From Chitinivibrionales bacterium (GTDB lineage: Bacteria > Fibrobacterota > Chitinivibrionia > Chitinivibrionales > JANQEN01), in the NCBI GenBank assembly GCA_030593665.1, contig JAUVGS010000120.1, positions 1 through 6,733 of the forward strand: a DNA stretch of 6,733 nucleotides, given 5' to 3'. Of this stretch, positions 231-6,569 are shown in pieces. The position numbers and the translations under genes are program-made. The number at the start of each line of letters is the position of its first letter. Within the stretch, counting starts at the first letter, position 1. The notes beneath the pieces were generated by a model, which was given only the letters and a program-made list of their open reading frames with translations, was not told the origin of the DNA and ran no database searches.

Positions 231-1475
231 ATGAAGAAGTGTTACGCCCTTTTCATGGTACTCTGCGGTTTCGCGGTTCTGTGTACCGCACAGACGGTTC
301 CTGCGTTTCATGCGGGAGAACTGTTAACGTTCAGCGATGGAACCGTTTTGAAACCGCAGGGAGATATGATCTGGTATGCCGTACCCTGTGTGGTTGACTG
401 GAATGGTGATGGGAAAAGGGATCTGTTGGCCGGTTATTTTGAAAATGGCAATGTTTACCAGTTTATTAATACCGGCTCCAATATCCAGCCGGCCTTTGAT
501 AAAGGAGATGAGGAAAAACTGCAGGCTGATGGTACTCCGATCTCAGTTTACGCTAATTGATGCCTCGGAGCTGCTCCGCAGGTTGCGGATTGGGATGAAG
601 ACGGCGATTATGATTTGCTGGTAGGTTCAAGGGATGGCTTTATCTGGCTATTCATTAATACTGGTTCGACAACAGCCCCTGTGCTTACATCAAAGGGAAA
701 AATACAGGCAAATGGAGTCGACCTGGACGCAGGATTCAGCGCACACCCGGTTGTTGTTGACTGGAATAATGACGGTAAAAAGGATCTGGTTATAGCAACC
801 CAGGATGATGGGGTTCGTGTGTATTTGAACACAGTTTCCAACGCAGCGCCCGCATTTTCCGGTTTTACGGTTGCCGTTACCAATATAGCTATACTCAATC
901 GTTGTTCAGCGGAAGTGTATGATCTTAATGGGGACGGTAAAAAAGACATTATTGCAGGCGAAAAAGAAGGAGGTGTCTACTTTTACGAAAACACCGGAAC
1001 TGATGCGTCACCAGAAATTTCGGCACAGGGAAAGAAAATGAAATTGACAAGCGGTCAGGAAATAACGATGCATGGAAGCGCGCATATCGATATGGTCGAT
1101 TGGGATGGTAACGGATCTATGGATTTGATAGTCGGTGTGAGTCAGGCTGATATACACATATTTCTTAATGCACAGTCTGTTAATATCAACAATGAAAAAA
1201 AACATTTACAGTACGAAACCGGCCTGGCCGATATTTTAATAAGACAGAATGGTAACAAACGGGAAATTAACCTGTTTATTCCAACTGCCGGCGTCTACAA
1301 AATTACAGCATATTCTCTTAATGGGAGAGAAAGTCCTTTTATGATTAATGATTTTTTTACCAGGGGAACGCACAAAATATCATTGAACTCTTTGTTGTTT
1401 TTACAAAACGTCTCACTTTTTGAGGTGCAATCTGGAAATCGGAAAATTGTAAAAAAGGGGATAATTATTGAATGA
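231..1475 (+). CDS. Gene 1: secreted VCBS/FG-GAP repeat protein, predicted selenoprotein (in-frame TGA at 558-560)
   Basis: The protein is 414 residues if the TGA at 558-560 is read as selenocysteine (residue 110). A signal peptide covers about residues 1-21 (basic start, hydrophobic core, then CTAQ). Five VCBS/FG-GAP type repeats follow, each with a calcium-loop-like motif: DWNGDGKRD (56-64), DWDEDGDYD (120-128), DWNNDGKKD (177-185), DLNGDGKKD (231-239) and DWDGNGSMD (290-298). They probably form a beta-propeller. Residues from about 315 resemble a T9SS sorting domain. The TGA falls between repeats 1 and 2, and repeat 2 starts only ten codons later in the same frame, so the propeller is intact only with readthrough. 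The Sec would be followed directly by Cys111 (U-C). The gene ends at a TGA (1473-1475) without a clear SECIS-like hairpin. The alternative is a nonsense-mutated pseudogene, made unlikely by the same pattern in four neighbours. Confidence 0.85.
575..589 (+). promoter_or_regulatory. Candidate bacterial SECIS hairpin in gene 1
   Basis: TCCGC (575-579) pairs perfectly with GCGGA (585-589) around the loop AGGTT. The loop GG begins 21 nt after the TGA at 558-560. A short stem with a G-containing apical loop roughly 16-37 nt after UGA is the known bacterial layout recognised by SelB. The AGGT loop resembles that of E. coli fdhF as I remember it. A competing hairpin (CGGAG/CTCCG, 565-577) overlaps it. 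Confidence 0.65.
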
Positions 1476-1612
1476 AATGTTCTTGTATGACTTTAAGCAA
1501 AAAGGTAGTGCTCATGGAAAGGCTTTTCAGTAATTTCAGAATGGGAACGTGCAGTCAGCCGATACGGGGTTTAACGTTTTTATTCCTCTCTTTCACTCCT
1601 CTGTTTGCGCAG
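1472..1612 (+). other. In-frame upstream extension of gene 2 with an extra signal-peptide-like segment
   Basis: The gene 2 frame is open upstream of its likely start, with ATGs at 1472 and 1514. The ATG at 1472 overlaps the gene 1 stop as ATGA, an arrangement often linked to translational coupling, and AAGGGG lies 11 bases before it. The ATG at 1514 has AGG 8 bases upstream. The encoded stretch ends in GLTFLFLSFTPLFAQ, which itself looks like the end of a signal peptide and resembles the FAPLFAQ of gene 4. A second signal peptide begins immediately afterwards. This is either a real N-terminal extension or the remnant of another secreted-protein gene. Confidence 0.4.
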
Positions 1613-2545
1613 ATGAAAGCTGTGAAACTTTCCTTACTATTCATCGTGTCATTGTGTATACAAATGGCATGGCCGGATGAAGTAACCGTGACATTGCAGA
1701 ATGGCGTAAATGACTATACCGGGTGCAGTGATATTCATATCGGGAATGAAGAAGATAATCCCTGCTCTGACGGAGTAAACAGCGGGGAATATACTAAGCT
1801 GGTTCTGACCTTTTTCAAGTGTTGAGAAGGCGACATTACATGGGCCAGGGTGGCCCTTGCATTCGACCTTTCCGCCATTCCTGCGGACGCGGTTATCAGT
1901 ACTGCGGAATTAGCCGTGTATAAGTTCGGCGAGTTTATGCTTGCCAAAGGAAAAGCTGATAATAAAATTCATACCATAACCACTCACTGGCAGGAATCCG
2001 GAACCAATTGGAGCCAGCCGTGGGCAACGGAAGGTGGCGATTTTGTGACGCCGGAGATTGACAAATATCATTACGACGGCACGGAAAATAATGTATGGCA
2101 AACTTTTCATGTAACCGCAACGGTGAAAGAATTTCATGCGAATCCCGATAAAAACTATGGATTTCTGATAATTTCCGATCCTGATAATGACGACGACATA
2201 CAGGCTAGCTATTACCATTCATCGGAATCTTCCGATACGGAGAAACGGCCTAAATTAATGGTTACCTATGAAGGGACTACACATAGTGCCGGCCATATAT
2301 CAAAAAGTATAAAACAAAATATAAAGATACAAATAACACCGAATTCTGTTTTACTTCTATTGCCCTTCAGCGGTAATTATTCCATAGCCATTTCGGATAT
2401 TCTGGGGAGAAAGATTTGTTCGCATACTGTAAAGAACGGCCGGGGCAGGTATGAAATGCCGCTTCCCGCAGCATCGGGTGCGTATATTGTCAACGTATGC
2501 ACTTCGGAAGAAAAAGCGGCGGGGAAGTTCTGGTTTGTACGGTAG
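1613..2545 (+). CDS. Gene 2: secreted DNRLRE/CBM96-like protein, predicted selenoprotein (in-frame TGA at 1823-1825)
   Basis: From the ATG at 1613 the protein has 310 residues with Sec at position 71, directly after Cys70 (K-C-U-E). The N-terminus (MKAVKLSLLFIVSLCIQMA) is a clear signal peptide. The phrases VTLQNGVNDYTGCSDIHI, then VALAFDLSAIPADAVISTAELAVY, then HWQESGTNW match the pattern of DNRLRE/CBM96-type domains, a jelly-roll module of secreted and carbohydrate-associated proteins. One copy of this domain spans the TGA, with its first strands before it and the FDLS strand after it, so readthrough is needed for a whole domain. The C-terminus (about residues 225-310, ending GKFWFVR) resembles a T9SS sorting domain with 'SDILGRKI' and 'GAYIVNV' elements. 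The start is uncertain: no Shine-Dalgarno precedes 1613, while 1472 and 1514 have weak ones. The stop is TAG. Confidence 0.82.
1842..1856 (+). promoter_or_regulatory. Candidate bacterial SECIS hairpin in gene 2
   Basis: GGGCC (1842-1846) pairs with GGCCC (1852-1856) around the loop AGGGT. The A and T of the loop can also pair, leaving a GGG triloop. The first loop G is 23 nt after the TGA at 1823-1825, two more than in the other four genes. The stem is all G-C and stands out from its surroundings. Confidence 0.65.
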
Positions 2546-2636
2546 CTTTAGCGATTTAAAAAGGAAAAACAATTGAATGGTAGCGAATAATCTGAAAAAA
2601 TGAACCGGGAAGTTGAAAGAAAGGATGATAAATCCT

Positions 2637-4100
2637 ATGATTAGATTGGAATTATTCTATCGATTTTTACTTCTGTGTGTGATTTTATCGTGCGCTTCGG
2701 TTGTTGCACAGCAGAATATCAGCGGTGCTCAGTCCGGCACGCTCGGGCCGGGTGAATATCTTGTAACCGGTGGTATTACCGTTTCATCAGGTAACACACT
2801 AATCATTAAACCGGGCACGAAGTTTTTCCATAACGGAAACCATAAATGGGAGATATCCGGGGAGCTGCGTGCTGAAGGCGCCCGGGAAGACAGCATTTAC
2901 TTTATACGAAAGGACGCTGTGGAAGGACACCGCTGGGGAGGACTTCGTTTTCAGAGCGGGGCGCCAGCTTCGGTACTTGATTATTGTGTGATCGACCATT
3001 GTTATATGAGCAGCTATAACGGTCCCAGCTCAAGCATAATGGTAAATTCCACGGGATTAACGTTAAAGCATAGCCGGGTTTCCAACGCTGCCTGTAACAA
3101 TGACTTCGGAGGCATTTATGCAAAAAGTTCCGTTATCCTGATAGACAGTTGTCTTATTGTCAATAATAAGGCGGTCAATCATCCCAAGGGAATGGGAGTG
3201 TTTCTGGATAATTGCGATAATGCAAAAATCCTGCATTCCGTAATAGCGTTTAATAAAAGTGACGGCGCCTGAAGCACTTGCGGCGGAGGTGGGGTCCACC
3301 TTGAAAGCTCAAATACGCTGATTTCGCACTGTCTTATTTACAGGAATGAACTAACAAATGGTTTTGCCGGCGGTATGGGGGGCGGCGGTATTCTGGCAAA
3401 AGGAAATTGTACCGTTACGCTGATTAACAACACAATAGCCTATAACAGCACAAAAAATGTTGGAGGCGGCATCTGTACGCACGGCGACGGCGGCGCCGCA
3501 ACATTTACAGGAAAGAACAATATTATTTATCACAACAGCGCAAAGGATAACACCCAGTATGGTTCGGTATATTCAGGAGGCACTACTACACTCACCTATT
3601 CCTGTATCTCACAGACATTAACCGGCACCGGCAATATAGAGGATGATCCAATGTTTCTGAATTCAGATGAGGATGACTATCATCTTAAAAACGGTTCTCC
3701 CTGTATCGATGCCGGAGATCCGAATTCTCCTCTCGATCCTGACAACACACGGGCAGATATGGGCGCTTTGTATTATGATCAGGGAACCGGTATTATTATT
3801 GAAAATCCGTTTGTTTCTCAATTTGAATATAACATTTATCAAGCCAATTCCGGCGTTTTTAATCAGGCAATCACTATCTGCTATCAGCTCCCGCATGCGG
3901 TTAATGTAGAGCTGGTAATCAACAACGCAGCCGGACAAAAAGTGTGTGCGATTGTTAACAGCAGGGTAATGGCAGGCAGCCATCAGGTGATCTGGGACGG
4001 CAAAAATGATGCTGGATACAACGTAGTCCCGGGTATATATTTTTATCGCTTTTCAGCAGGTTCTTACCGGGATGTACTGAAAATACCGTTGGTGCGATAA
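2637..4100 (+). CDS. Gene 3: secreted right-handed beta-helix protein, predicted selenoprotein (in-frame TGA at 3270-3272)
   Basis: The protein has 487 residues with Sec at 212, in the motif U-S-T-C (Sec212, Cys215). The ATG at 2637 is chosen because AAGGA lies 11 bases upstream and it gives a compact signal peptide (MIRLELFYRFLLLCVIL, ending VVAQ). A TTG at 2613 and an ATG at 2625 are in-frame alternatives. The central region has the repeating short-strand pattern of parallel beta-helix or pectate-lyase-like proteins: 'LIIKPGTKF', 'GELRAEG', 'WGGLRF', 'LDYCVIDHC', 'LTLKHSRVSN', 'ILHSVIAFN', 'LISHCLIYRN', 'LINNTIAYN'. It ends with 'GSPCIDAGDP', common in such proteins. The coils continue on both sides of the TGA in one frame. 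The last 90 residues (about 398-487) form a FlgD-like/T9SS sorting domain (HQVIWDGKNDAGYNV, then GIYFYRF). No catalytic site could be assigned. The stop is TAA. Confidence 0.86.
3287..3301 (+). promoter_or_regulatory. Candidate bacterial SECIS hairpin in gene 3
   Basis: AGGTGG (3287-3292) pairs with CCACCT (3296-3301) around a GGT loop. A G-T wobble (3286/3302) can extend the stem. The loop GG begins 21 nt after the TGA at 3270-3272, the same offset as in genes 1, 4 and 5. Confidence 0.65.
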
Positions 4101-4150
4101 ATGACGAAAACAGGTAAAATAGCTATTTGTAAACTAAAGGAAACTGTATA

Positions 4151-5155
4151 ATGAAAATTATAAAACTTTTCTTACTGTGTGTTGTGTTATGGTTTGCTCC
4201 CCTGTTCGCTCAGGATGGCTGGAAACAGGTAACCACTTCCGCTACCTGGGCAGCCAGAGGCGAACACTCTTTTGTTGTCTATGACGGGAAAATGTGGATA
4301 CTGAAGGGCCTGGATTCGCAAAGCGAAGATTATAAAGATATCTGGTATTCAACAAACGGCACCTCATGGACTACGGTGAGTAAAGACGACCTTTTTAATA
4401 TATGCAGCTCTTTTCCTACAGTTGATTTTATGGGGGAGATGTATACTGTGGGTGGAAGCACCTGTTGAAGCGGTCCATGTTCAAGCCAGGTTTGGCGTTC
4501 AAACAATGGAGGGAAATGGAATGGTGTTACAAACACGCCCGGATGGAGTAAACGGTGCGCCTCGTGTGCGCTTGTTTACAAAGATAAAATATGGCTGCTT
4601 GGCGGATTTGCTACAAGCAAAACAGTTGCGGACGTCTGGTATTCACCGGATGCCACCAACTGGACAGAGGCTGCGTCAAACTGTTGGCCGGACAGGGCAG
4701 CTTTTTCCGCAGTTGTTTACAAGGGTAGAATGTGGGTTATGGGAGGAGTAAAAATGGGTGTATCCAATAGCTCGGTACATAATGACGTCTGGTCTTCTGA
4801 TGACGGGGCAAATTGGACAAAAGAAACATCAGCAGGGTGGGCCCCGCGACATACTCATGCCTCGTTTATTTATGATGGAAAAATATGGATAATGGGAGGT
4901 TGCAATGCTTCCGGAGGTTGTTATAACGATGTCTGGTGTTTTAAGGGTGAAACCGCCATAAACAACGTTTCAGAGATGCCAAAGGAAGTTACACTGTTTC
5001 AAAACACTGTCCATGGTAATGTTAATCTCAACTTTTACGTGTCAATTGCCGGTAGAGTAACCGTTGGCATTTATACAATTACAGGCCGGTTGGTACGGCG
5101 TCTTGTTGATAAAGAAATGGCCAGGGGCAGTCACAATTTGATATATCAAGTTTAA
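4151..5155 (+). CDS. Gene 4: secreted Kelch-type propeller protein, predicted selenoprotein (in-frame TGA at 4466-4468), short C-terminus
   Basis: The protein has 334 residues with Sec at 106, in the motif C-U-S-G-P-C. AAAGGA lies 9 bases before the ATG. A signal peptide covers about residues 1-21 (MKIIKLFLLCVVLWFAPLFAQ). The body is a run of Kelch-like blades, each with a 'DGK-W-I-GG' strand followed by 'DVWYS-DGT-W': MWILKGL, MYTVGGSTC, IWLLGGF, MWVMGGV and IWIMGGC. The Sec lies in the loop after GG of the second blade. The last blade has an equivalent loop with two cysteines (GGCNASGGC). A CxxC (CASC) lies in the blade after the Sec. Residues from about 275 begin a T9SS sorting domain (LFQNTVHGNVNLNFYV, then GRLVRRLVD, then GSHNL). 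It stops at YQV-TAA, without the usual last strands (GIY.Y.L and a basic end). The gene lies 50 bases after gene 3, in probable operon order. Confidence 0.84.
4483..4499 (+). promoter_or_regulatory. Candidate bacterial SECIS hairpin in gene 4
   Basis: GCCA (4485-4488) pairs with TGGC (4493-4496) around the loop GGTT. AA (4483-4484) and TT (4498-4499) extend the stem past a bulged G. The loop GG begins 21 nt after the TGA at 4466-4468. This is the weakest stem of the five, but its position and loop match the others. Confidence 0.58.
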
Positions 5156-5163
5156 ATATAAAC

Positions 5164-5214
5164 ACTGCTTTACCAGGGAAATCATCACTGTTTTCTCAAT
5201 TAAAAGCAGTTTTC
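5164..5214 (+). terminator. Possible terminator after gene 4
   Basis: ACTGCTTT (5164-5171) and AAAGCAGT (5203-5210) are perfect inverted repeats followed by TTTC. The loop is long (31 nt) and the T-run short, so this is a weak candidate. It lies just past the gene 4 stop, where a transcript of genes 1-4 would be expected to end. Confidence 0.35.
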
Positions 5215-5357
5215 TAATGGCATGATTTTTGCGATTTAAATAAACTATTCTCGCAATCTTTAGGCTACACATAAGTTGTTTTCAATACAATAAAGGCTTC
5301 TTGAAGAAAAATATTCCGACGAGACAGTGTTGTGTTTGTGCGTTAACGACAACAGTG

Positions 5358-5415
5358 GTACCTTAGAAATAATTTTCTGCGTTTTTTTTGGCAAAGAATT
5401 ATTTCGTGAAGGTAC
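5358..5415. repeat. Long imperfect inverted repeat
   Basis: GTACCTT (5358-5364) pairs with AAGGTAC (5409-5415). After a small internal bulge, GAAATAATT (5366-5374) pairs with AATTATTTC (5397-5405). The loop contains a run of eight T. Sixteen base pairs in two blocks is more than expected by chance. Its role is unknown: a structured leader, a protein-binding site or a small-element remnant are all possible. Confidence 0.5.
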
Positions 5416-5465
5416 TTATCCAGTTTATCTGGCTTAGGGTGATTCTCAATTATTAATGACAAAAT

Positions 5466-5495
5466 GCTTACATTTGGTAAGCGGATAATTTTTTT
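5466..5495 (+). terminator. Hairpin followed by a T-run, possible terminator
   Basis: GCTTAC (5466-5471) and GTAAGC (5477-5482) form a perfect 6-bp stem with the loop ATTTG. Seven T follow at 5489-5495, but six bases separate them from the stem, which weakens the call. It could stop read-through from gene 4 or act as an attenuator ahead of gene 5. Confidence 0.3.
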
Positions 5496-5675
5496 ATTCA
5501 CATAATCGCAATGACAATTCTCTATATTAGTTATGAGGAAAATAATTTAGTAGATAATTCGGAAAAATACTATATAAGCTATGATAGATATTGTTAAATC
5601 AGGAAAACCACCGAAAATTAATGGGTAAGATCGGCAACTTTCGCACCGTTCCAAAATTTGATAACATCAAAATAA

Positions 5676-5681
5676 AAGGAG
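5676..5681 (+). promoter_or_regulatory. Ribosome binding site that fixes the gene 5 start
   Basis: AAGGAG lies 6 bases before the ATG at 5688. It shows that translation starts here, upstream of the in-frame TGA, and not at the later TTG at 5829, which lies inside the hairpin. The short reading frame before the TGA is therefore a real, expressed N-terminus. Confidence 0.75.
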
Positions 5682-5687
5682 AAGAGT

Positions 5688-6569
5688 ATGTATAAGAATA
5701 TCTTGATGGCTTTTATGACAATGTTCATTTCAATAACGACTCATGCTCAGTACGTTCAAATAGGGAAAACAGAAATCATCTTTACCTATCCTTACTGCTG
5801 TTGAACTGATAATGTAAGATACCAGGCTTTGGTATTAGCGAGTGAATTGGACGGTGCAAAAAACATCATTGAATTGCAGATGTATGGTGATAAAAAAGAC
5901 GTTTCAACATGGGGCAATTTGGAGTGGACACTCTGCCAGACATCTCTTTCACAGTTAACGACTAATTTTAATGATAATTATGACGGAAATATACCTCTGC
6001 TTGTGTACTACAGACAAAAGCATACTTTCAACACTGGTGCAAATCAGTGGCCGGGCTTCCCGTTTGATACGGCCTTTGTTTATGACGGCAGGAGTAATCT
6101 GATTTTAGAAACCCGATGGAACGAGAAAGGGGCGGAGCAAAACGGGTGGGGAACCTGGAAGAATGCTGAAAAACGCTGCGTTTTTGGTGCTTATACTGAT
6201 GAAACCGGTATGCATTTGCCTGGTGGCTCGATGACCGTGTTTCGTTTGATCTATGATGCAACCGATGTTGAAGTCCCGACTGCGATTGAAAAACAGAATG
6301 GATTAACACTTTATTTCGATCCGTCGGGGAGTACTGTTCGCATACATTTTTTCGTGTCACAGCACACTGCTGACGTCAAGGTGAAGGTATATGATGCGCA
6401 CGGTACTCTAATTCGAGCGCTTATACATGAGAAAAAAGAAACAGGTGCCTGCTTTGTCAATTGGAATACCCGCAATTACCGGGGAGTGAAGGTTCCTGCG
6501 GGTATCTATTTCGTCAGATTAGATGTTGATAATAACCGGCAGGTTAAGAAAGTTGTATTTACGCGATAA
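5688..6569 (+). CDS. Gene 5: secreted protein with T9SS sorting domain, predicted selenoprotein (in-frame TGA at 5802-5804)
   Basis: The protein has 293 residues with Sec at 39, in the motif Y-C-C-U-T. The signal peptide is about residues 1-21 (MYKNILMAFMTMFISITTHAQ). The region 'VQIGKTEI...YPYCCU...RYQALVLASELDGAKNIIELQM' followed by 'TAFVYDGRSNLILETRW' resembles the N-terminal module of many FCB-group secreted proteins that begin 'IG...YPF......R.Q.LY.ASEL'. I know no function or firm family name for it. The similarity spans the TGA, which supports readthrough. The last 90 residues are a full sorting domain: a first strand (LTLYFDP), 'VKVYDAHGTLIRAL', 'NWNTRNYRGVKVPAGIYFVRL' and a basic end (KKVVFTR). 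Without readthrough only a 38-residue peptide would be made, almost all signal peptide. The 532-base gap upstream suggests its own promoter. The stop is TAA. Confidence 0.83.
5819..5835 (+). promoter_or_regulatory. Candidate bacterial SECIS hairpin in gene 5
   Basis: ATACCA (5819-5824) pairs with TGGTAT (5830-5835) around the loop GGCTT, and a G-T wobble (5818/5836) can extend it. The loop GG begins 21 nt after the TGA at 5802-5804. Confidence 0.65.

Follow-up and report, generated by a model that had tools for sequence, protein, structure and literature searches.

According to a 2026 inventory, which counts 119 prokaryotic selenoprotein families and subfamilies, most characterized selenoproteins combine a thioredoxin-like fold with a redox motif (PMC13188914). 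Here we describe a 6,733-nucleotide stretch of DNA from a Chitinivibrionales bacterium (contig JAUVGS010000120.1; the whole stretch is hereafter called the window) in which five consecutive genes for predicted secreted proteins with beta-rich folds each carry a single in-frame TGA with a cysteine (Cys) beside or near it. Based on the reading frames, the hairpins that follow the TGA codons, the relatives that share these codons and the decoding machinery of the genomes in which such relatives lie, we conclude that UGA is very probably decoded as selenocysteine (Sec, written U in motifs) across the five-gene cluster. Many of the relatives come from Candidatus Fermentibacterota, a phylum described as strictly anaerobic and as living by fermentation of amino acids and sugars (PMC5763382).

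The genes and their in-frame TGA codons, in window coordinates, are as follows.

231..1475, + strand: gene 1, signal peptide, FG-GAP beta-propeller and C-terminal tail (Pfam FG-GAP_3, 4.1e-23)
558..560, + strand: in-frame TGA of gene 1, predicted Sec110, followed by Cys111
1616..2545, + strand: gene 2, signal peptide, DNRLRE/CBM96-like domain and weak type IX secretion system (T9SS) tail (NCBIfam DNRLRE, 1.7e-19)
1823..1825, + strand: in-frame TGA of gene 2, predicted Sec, preceded by Cys
2625..4100, + strand: gene 3, signal peptide, right-handed beta-helix and FlgD-like tail (Pfam Beta_helix, 4.4e-10; FlgD_ig, 1.1e-8)
3270..3272, + strand: in-frame TGA of gene 3, predicted Sec of U-S-T-C
4151..5155, + strand: gene 4, signal peptide, kelch beta-propeller and shortened C-terminal tail (Pfam kelch, 4.1e-20)
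4466..4468, + strand: in-frame TGA of gene 4, predicted Sec of C-U-S-G-P-C
5688..6569, + strand: gene 5, signal peptide, beta-sandwich domain and T9SS type A tail (TIGR04183)
5802..5804, + strand: in-frame TGA of gene 5, predicted Sec39, preceded by Cys-Cys

When the window was translated with TGA as a residue, the codons at 558, 1823, 3270, 4466 and 5802 fell one to a gene in five genes in a row, in the residue contexts N-U-C-L, K-C-U-E, A-U-S-T-C, T-C-U-S-G-P-C and C-C-U-T for genes 1 to 5. Apart from the TGA, all five frames run without a stop from a hydrophobic N-terminus to the protein end; under the standard code every gene becomes two open reading frames (ORFs). The first-pass annotation of this DNA had described the same arrangement, with one TGA by Cys in each of five consecutive genes, the signal peptide before it, the rest of the protein after it and no frameshift. 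Re-reading confirmed this with small adjustments: gene 2 most likely starts at the ATG at 1616, rather than at the first listed start at 1472, and the tail of gene 4 is short. Gene 4 ends at a TAA (window 5100-5155) about 35 residues short of the tail end of its relative in genome G043, and may be a truncated copy. With gene 2 taken from 1616, 50 to 140 bases separate genes 1 to 4, and 532 bases precede gene 5. The annotation had also given all five proteins T9SS sorting domains; that part is supported for gene 5, which scores 26.9 bits with TIGR04183 against a curated cut-off of 23, genes 1 to 4 all lying under that cut-off (gene 2, 21.8; gene 3, 12.9; no listed match for genes 1 and 4 in the NCBIfam scan). 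Gene 1 terminates at a TGA (1473-1475), so TGA still serves as a stop here. Genome-wide recoding of TGA (codes 4/25) was rejected on this ground and on the single internal TGA per gene. A plasmid search with the window was empty, and the window holds no marker gene.

Each TGA is followed by a hairpin resembling a bacterial selenocysteine insertion sequence (bSECIS). In every case the loop begins with GG, and its first G is at position 24 counted from the T of the TGA (26 in gene 2). The E. coli fdhF element has the same hairpin layout.

575..589, + strand: bSECIS-like hairpin of gene 1, TCCGCA-GGT-TGCGGA
1842..1856, + strand: bSECIS-like hairpin of gene 2, GGGCCA-GGG-TGGCCC
3286..3302, + strand: bSECIS-like hairpin of gene 3, GAGGTGG-GGT-CCACCTT
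4485..4496, + strand: short bSECIS-like hairpin of gene 4, GCCA-GGTT-TGGC, 4 bp only
5818..5836, + strand: bSECIS-like hairpin of gene 5, GATACCA-GGCTT-TGGTATT

Hairpins were scored by a stem of at least 5 bp and a GG loop at bSECIS distance, with a relaxed test for the window that allowed a 4-bp stem. The controls for the window were 1741 further in-frame codons from these five genes and 240 further TGA triplets. Under the stricter test four of the five window TGAs passed, versus 32 of the control codons and 2 of the control triplets; under the relaxed test all five passed, versus 92 and 9 (binomial p against the codon controls 5.6e-7 and 4.1e-7, respectively). The result extends to relatives. 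Counting 87 distinct TGA sites (5 from the window, 41 FG-GAP, 28 gene-5, 10 beta-helix and 3 kelch), a hairpin of at least 5 bp was present at 81, versus 165 of 7047 downstream in-frame control codons in the same loci; of the six sites that failed, three belong to the gene-5 family, two to the FG-GAP family, and the last is that of window gene 4. Over the 42 FG-GAP family members, window included, the third stem pair is A-U in 37, G-C in 3 and G-U in 2. The hairpin is absent after the Cys codon of a gene-5 homolog (locus L115) and from an FG-GAP paralog with Asp at the site (L221). Rfam gave just three weak snoRNA matches on the window, all below cut-off.

Relatives were reached by scanning genome contigs with the FG-GAP piece, which gave Candidatus Sabulitectum silens, a member of Fermentibacterota, among others; the 17 genomes behind the first FG-GAP loci were searched first, followed by 42 Fermentibacterota genomes (G, L, P and C numbers are genome, locus, protein and contig labels of this analysis). 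An FG-GAP match was found in 36 of the 42 genomes, and all 36 have a TGA-bearing one, with up to nine such matches in a single genome (G049). Stops were counted by hand over all 117 listed Fermentibacterota matches: 98 contain a single TGA, 18 are free of stops and one has a TAG and a TAA; by coordinates, eight of the 18 fall short of the site and seven lie in or beside a gene with its own TGA match, as shifted repeats. In an alignment of 42 rows (41 distinct sites plus the window) the TGA occupies the window's column in 41 and the next column in one, and no Cys/Sec columns come close to invariance except those of the Sec itself (42) and of the Cys that follows (41). The FG-GAP tails match TIGR04183 in 16 of 21 rows at E up to 0.001. 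A second phylum, that of an Eisenbacteria record, has FG-GAP relatives (E < 1e-25) in 7 of 20 genomes, with one TGA in four of nine matches; at the loci read, TGA (L281, L284) and Cys (L280, L282, L283) occupy the same place. The motif around this site is GG-U/C-LG/MG..FPRVVYW.

The other families were followed in the same way. For gene 3, relatives of up to 61% identity were found in Fermentibacterota, other phyla having been searched in part; all of the ten best beta-helix matches (all E < 1e-100, Fermentibacterota) have one TGA, and it lies in a common column in 11 of 11 rows. Sequence similarity is continuous across both sides of the TGA in FG-GAP and beta-helix matches alike. Three TGA-bearing relatives of the kelch gene 4 were found in two genomes (L135, L155, L136). 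The gene-5 domain is present in 39 of the 42 Fermentibacterota genomes and was not found in the phylum of G001 (6 genomes). Thirty gene-5 loci, one per genome, were fetched and read: the homologous site holds TGA in 28 and Cys in one (L115, CASC), and lies off the contig in one (L117). In the 29 readable rows the near-invariant columns are a Cys (28) and the Sec (27), mostly arranged as CxxU, and the relative in Candidatus Sabulitectum silens reads MKG...DPFCAS-TGA-GSMNRYQ. No homolog with Cys at the TGA site was found for genes 2 and 4, and a genome-contig scan with the joined alignment of genes 2 and 5 found no relative. In protein searches the gene-5 relatives P0007-P0009 and the gene-2 relatives P0011 and P0012 all begin after the TGA position, and P0007, P0011 and P0012 start at the very residue at which the window's own post-TGA ORF starts, the pattern expected if gene finders cut them at a TGA as well.

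Clusters of TGA genes also recur. Five genes on one strand of contig C19 of G043 (10,486 bases) have a single internal TGA apiece: a kelch gene, an FG-GAP gene and three beta-helix genes. A 240-residue gene among them has none. The TGA motifs resemble those of the window, and one is identical to the gene 3 motif over DGA-U-STCGGGGVH. A secreted, Cys-containing protein of 240 residues without TGA was seen in or beside both clusters (L156:4480-5202, L155:15124-15849). A further contig, G030:C49, holds kelch, FG-GAP and kelch genes, all with TGA. By these shared and clustered families, the window would probably be placed in Fermentibacterota or near that phylum.

The machinery for selenocysteine is widespread in Fermentibacterota. 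A tRNA-Sec scores 68 to 76 bits in 36 of the 42 genomes, with the remainder below 50 bits, and 38 are over the Rfam cut-off; its anticodon is TCA in all five loci scanned. SelB is over cut-off in 35 genomes and SelA is found in 35, directly adjoining SelB in, e.g., G043 and G025. From these relatives we infer that the window genes would be served by the same machinery. Genome G038, without tRNA-Sec, SelB and SelA, also has no FG-GAP or gene-5 match. In the Eisenbacteria-record phylum, tRNA-Sec was found in 10 of 10 genomes tested.

A de novo scan gave further candidates. We scanned 791,661 bases of G049, on contigs picked for holding FG-GAP matches, for frames that begin with a signal peptide and run on for 60 codons or more past an in-frame stop. 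A hairpin followed the stop in 12 of 20 TGA frames, 0 of 13 TAA frames and 0 of 6 TAG frames; 11 of the 12 hairpin TGA frames look real by eye, and they include further C-U proteins. Exported frames with a Cys-Sec pair and hairpin in this genome (L254, L256, L275, L276) read C-U-GGTLNSS, GC-U-STTKLNHQ, TC-U-GDNNTIAP and DC-U-GALQHCQ. With TGA relatives, hairpins and Sec machinery across Fermentibacterota, the selenoprotein cluster proposed in the first-pass annotation is both supported and widened.

Several observations weigh against this reading and need to be set beside it. The hairpin of gene 4 has a 4-bp stem where its three kelch relatives have 7 bp, and the folding energy of the 63 nucleotides after the window TGAs is ordinary against shuffles (z -1.24 to 0.07); the hairpin signal in the window is one of loop letters and distance, not of free energy. 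Two stop-free FG-GAP paralogs read at the site have Glu-Thr (L220) and Asp (L221) there, and the former, in G037 (L220:1225), keeps a 9-bp hairpin with Glu-Thr in place of Sec-Cys, which looks like a recent loss of Sec beside an intact TGA copy. The Eisenbacteria TGAs of L281 and L284 lack the usual GG-loop type of hairpin, and those genes may use a different SECIS type. Weaker kelch matches have no TGA, one of them, in G051, carrying two TAG. The beta-helix family has several other conserved Cys, and of its 87 distant homologs 75 extend across the site, where 27 have a gap, 7 a Cys and 41 another residue. Gaps or unrelated residues at the TGA positions had been named beforehand as evidence against selenocysteine; distant beta-helix homologs mostly show just that, and the ten close ones all have TGA. 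Since the distant homologs mostly have a gap or another residue there, the Sec loop seems to have been added to a beta-helix scaffold that is older. Near the end of G043:C19 a sixth beta-helix piece (L156:9253-10062) has its TGA within the sorting tail (ISC-U-LTGN), which is not the usual site, and the GG-loop hairpin is absent after it. The scan filter applied to 360,000 bases of G003 gave a hairpin after 1 of 11 TGA (a UPTC protein), 0 of 7 TAG and 0 of 1 TAA, and without the signal-peptide requirement there was no TGA excess in that genome (18 of 548 TGA, 8 of 228 TAG, 3 of 145 TAA). Finally, G040, a 2.0-Mb assembly, has TGA genes and no clear tRNA-Sec, SelB over cut-off or SelA, a gap that probably reflects missing contigs. 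In G003 we noted a secreted frame with an in-frame TGA and hairpin (L157:1633, contig C2) that reads ...VVLFGEFTSTT-U-PTCP, a UxxC protein that is thioredoxin-like by eye.

The five genes most probably encode exported selenoproteins. In this reading SelB and tRNA-Sec would place selenocysteine at the one in-frame UGA of each gene, at the hairpin downstream of it, and the N-terminal signal peptide and C-terminal tail would deliver the products to the cell surface. There the Sec-Cys pair is predicted to form a redox centre on an exported beta-propeller, beta-helix or beta-sandwich protein, perhaps cycling between selenol/thiol and selenenylsulfide, the least certain step of the scheme. Redox use is suggested because the pair is self-contained on an exported scaffold, and we consider the odds on it to be even. 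AlphaFold models of the FG-GAP and gene-5 proteins, with Sec modelled as Cys (mean predicted local distance difference test score 83 for each), place the pair in a loop preceding a propeller strand and in a low-confidence loop preceding a strand, respectively. Structure searches with the FG-GAP model gave a weak likeness to CRTAC1 and a fungal lectin (TM 0.3-0.4); those with the gene-5 model gave low TM values, mainly with glycosidases, and were uninformative.

The main alternative use, which we regard as possible rather than probable, is that the proteins are true selenoproteins whose Cys-Sec pair captures metals or organometals such as mercury, arsenic or copper at the surface. The vicinal C-U or U-C of window genes 1, 2, 4 and 5 fits this idea, as do the metal-linked names among the C-U entries listed in the inventory table (SaoL organometallic lyase, HgcA mercury methylation protein, CopZ-like 2Fe-2S protein, metal-binding MbdU; PMC13188914). 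However, gene 3 and its relatives are UxxC and most gene-5 relatives are CxxU, spacings usual in redox proteins, and no metal-handling neighbour genes were established.

Gene 2 deserves separate consideration, as it could be the exception among four selenoprotein genes, its TGA being a mutation or a true stop. It has five weak matches in Fermentibacterota, all beginning after the site, and the four of these that were read upstream (about 30% identical) have no TGA, three of them having a Cys a few residues on; these too are points against a cluster of five. The first-pass annotation had looked to homologs for a Cys or another TGA at each position, an expectation borne out for genes 1, 3, 4 and 5 and not for gene 2, with TGA in none of the four relatives read. 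Against a special status, gene 2 has a 6-bp GGG-loop hairpin at the right distance and a Cys before its TGA, and P0011 and P0012, 86% and 82% identical to it, are predicted to start just after the TGA, at the same residue (another protein, P0013, is a weak match, 22% identical and longer). We therefore consider the exception unlikely, and selenocysteine the better account of gene 2 as well.

It could also be argued that a suppressor tRNA, with no selenium involved, inserts Cys or another amino acid at these codons, and the exchange of Sec and Cys at the site in L115 and the Eisenbacteria loci would be in keeping with this. A general suppressor would not need a hairpin, however, and one accompanies 81 of the 87 sites, each gene having one internal TGA; moreover the phylum has tRNA-Sec (TCA), SelB and SelA, and gene 1 still terminates at TGA, making this account very improbable. 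Decay of the genes by nonsense mutation, or a splitting of genes that leaves short secreted pieces with the signal peptide, is barely credible: the standard code does give two ORFs per gene and gene 4 lacks its tail end, but 98 FG-GAP matches, spread over 36 genomes, hold a single TGA each and just one listed match has TAA/TAG, similarity is continuous on both sides of the site, and the shared TGA in relatives of genes 1, 3, 4 and 5 already contradicts it for those genes, as the first-pass annotation anticipated in calling independent nonsense mutations implausible.

Taking the selenocysteine reading forward, Sec is predicted in four beta-rich exported families, unrelated to one another and all from a single phylum, and also in window gene 2. 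A broader proposal, for which we see about equal grounds for belief and doubt, is that a whole phylum of strict anaerobes is coated with selenium, with probably dozens of exported proteins per genome that have one Sec beside Cys on unrelated beta-scaffolds, and a surface that is redox-active or metal-binding; Sec would then have been added repeatedly to adhesin- or lectin-like folds. If true, this would be among the largest extracellular selenoproteomes. Standard gene finding would hide the predicted families by splitting their genes at the TGA. The families raise the testable question of why an anaerobe spends selenium on its surface; they also add to the natural UGA/bSECIS contexts, and they hint that beta-propellers and beta-helices can accept a grafted Sec.

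The data support a predicted phylum-wide exported selenoproteome on beta-scaffolds that would be new relative to the 119-entry inventory. No FG-GAP, kelch, beta-helix, DNRLRE or T9SS entries occur in the whole of the inventory's Table 1 (PMC13188914), which as far as that table extends agrees with the first-pass remark that no described cluster of this kind was known. No selenoprotein model was hit when the five window proteins, along with alignments A5 and A6, were scanned against NCBIfam, and the literature searched on selenoproteins with such folds or with type IX secretion, and on selenocysteine in Fermentibacter, held nothing comparable, Haft and Tolstoy 2025 being covered only via its inventory entries.

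Comparison with the known systems shows what is shared and what is not. With FdhF-type bSECIS selenoproteins the window genes share an in-frame UGA, a hairpin about 20 nucleotides downstream and a G-rich apical loop, as well as SelA, SelB and tRNA-Sec in relatives; unlike them, their products are beta-propellers, beta-helices and beta-sandwiches with signal peptides, and belong to large sets of paralogs. Gene 3 and most gene-5 relatives share the two-residue spacing of Sec and Cys with the thioredoxin, glutaredoxin and DsbA-like UxxC/CxxU selenoproteins listed in the inventory (PMC13188914), but have it on a right-handed beta-helix and a beta-sandwich rather than a thioredoxin fold. The vicinal Cys-Sec of window genes 1, 2, 4 and 5 recalls the C-U entries SaoL, SaoC, HgcA, MbdU and KCU-star of the same list (PMC13188914), whereas none of those families appeared in the NCBIfam scans and the window proteins are predicted to be exported, with C-terminal tails. 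Entries such as the FCYXU type of TonB-dependent receptor, the MtrB/PioB-type barrel and the multiheme cytochrome ExtKL would, by name, also place Sec outside the cytoplasm; they are other folds and families, and the inventory as tabulated lists no beta-scaffold surface clusters (PMC13188914). Gene 5, with its TIGR04183 tail over cut-off, resembles the T9SS cargo of the Fibrobacteres-Chlorobi-Bacteroidetes (FCB) group, from which the window genes differ by their in-frame TGA and genes 1 to 4 by tails under cut-off. Lastly, ordinary FG-GAP, kelch and right-handed beta-helix surface proteins match the same profiles, and what sets the window proteins apart from them is a predicted Sec-Cys loop at one fixed place.

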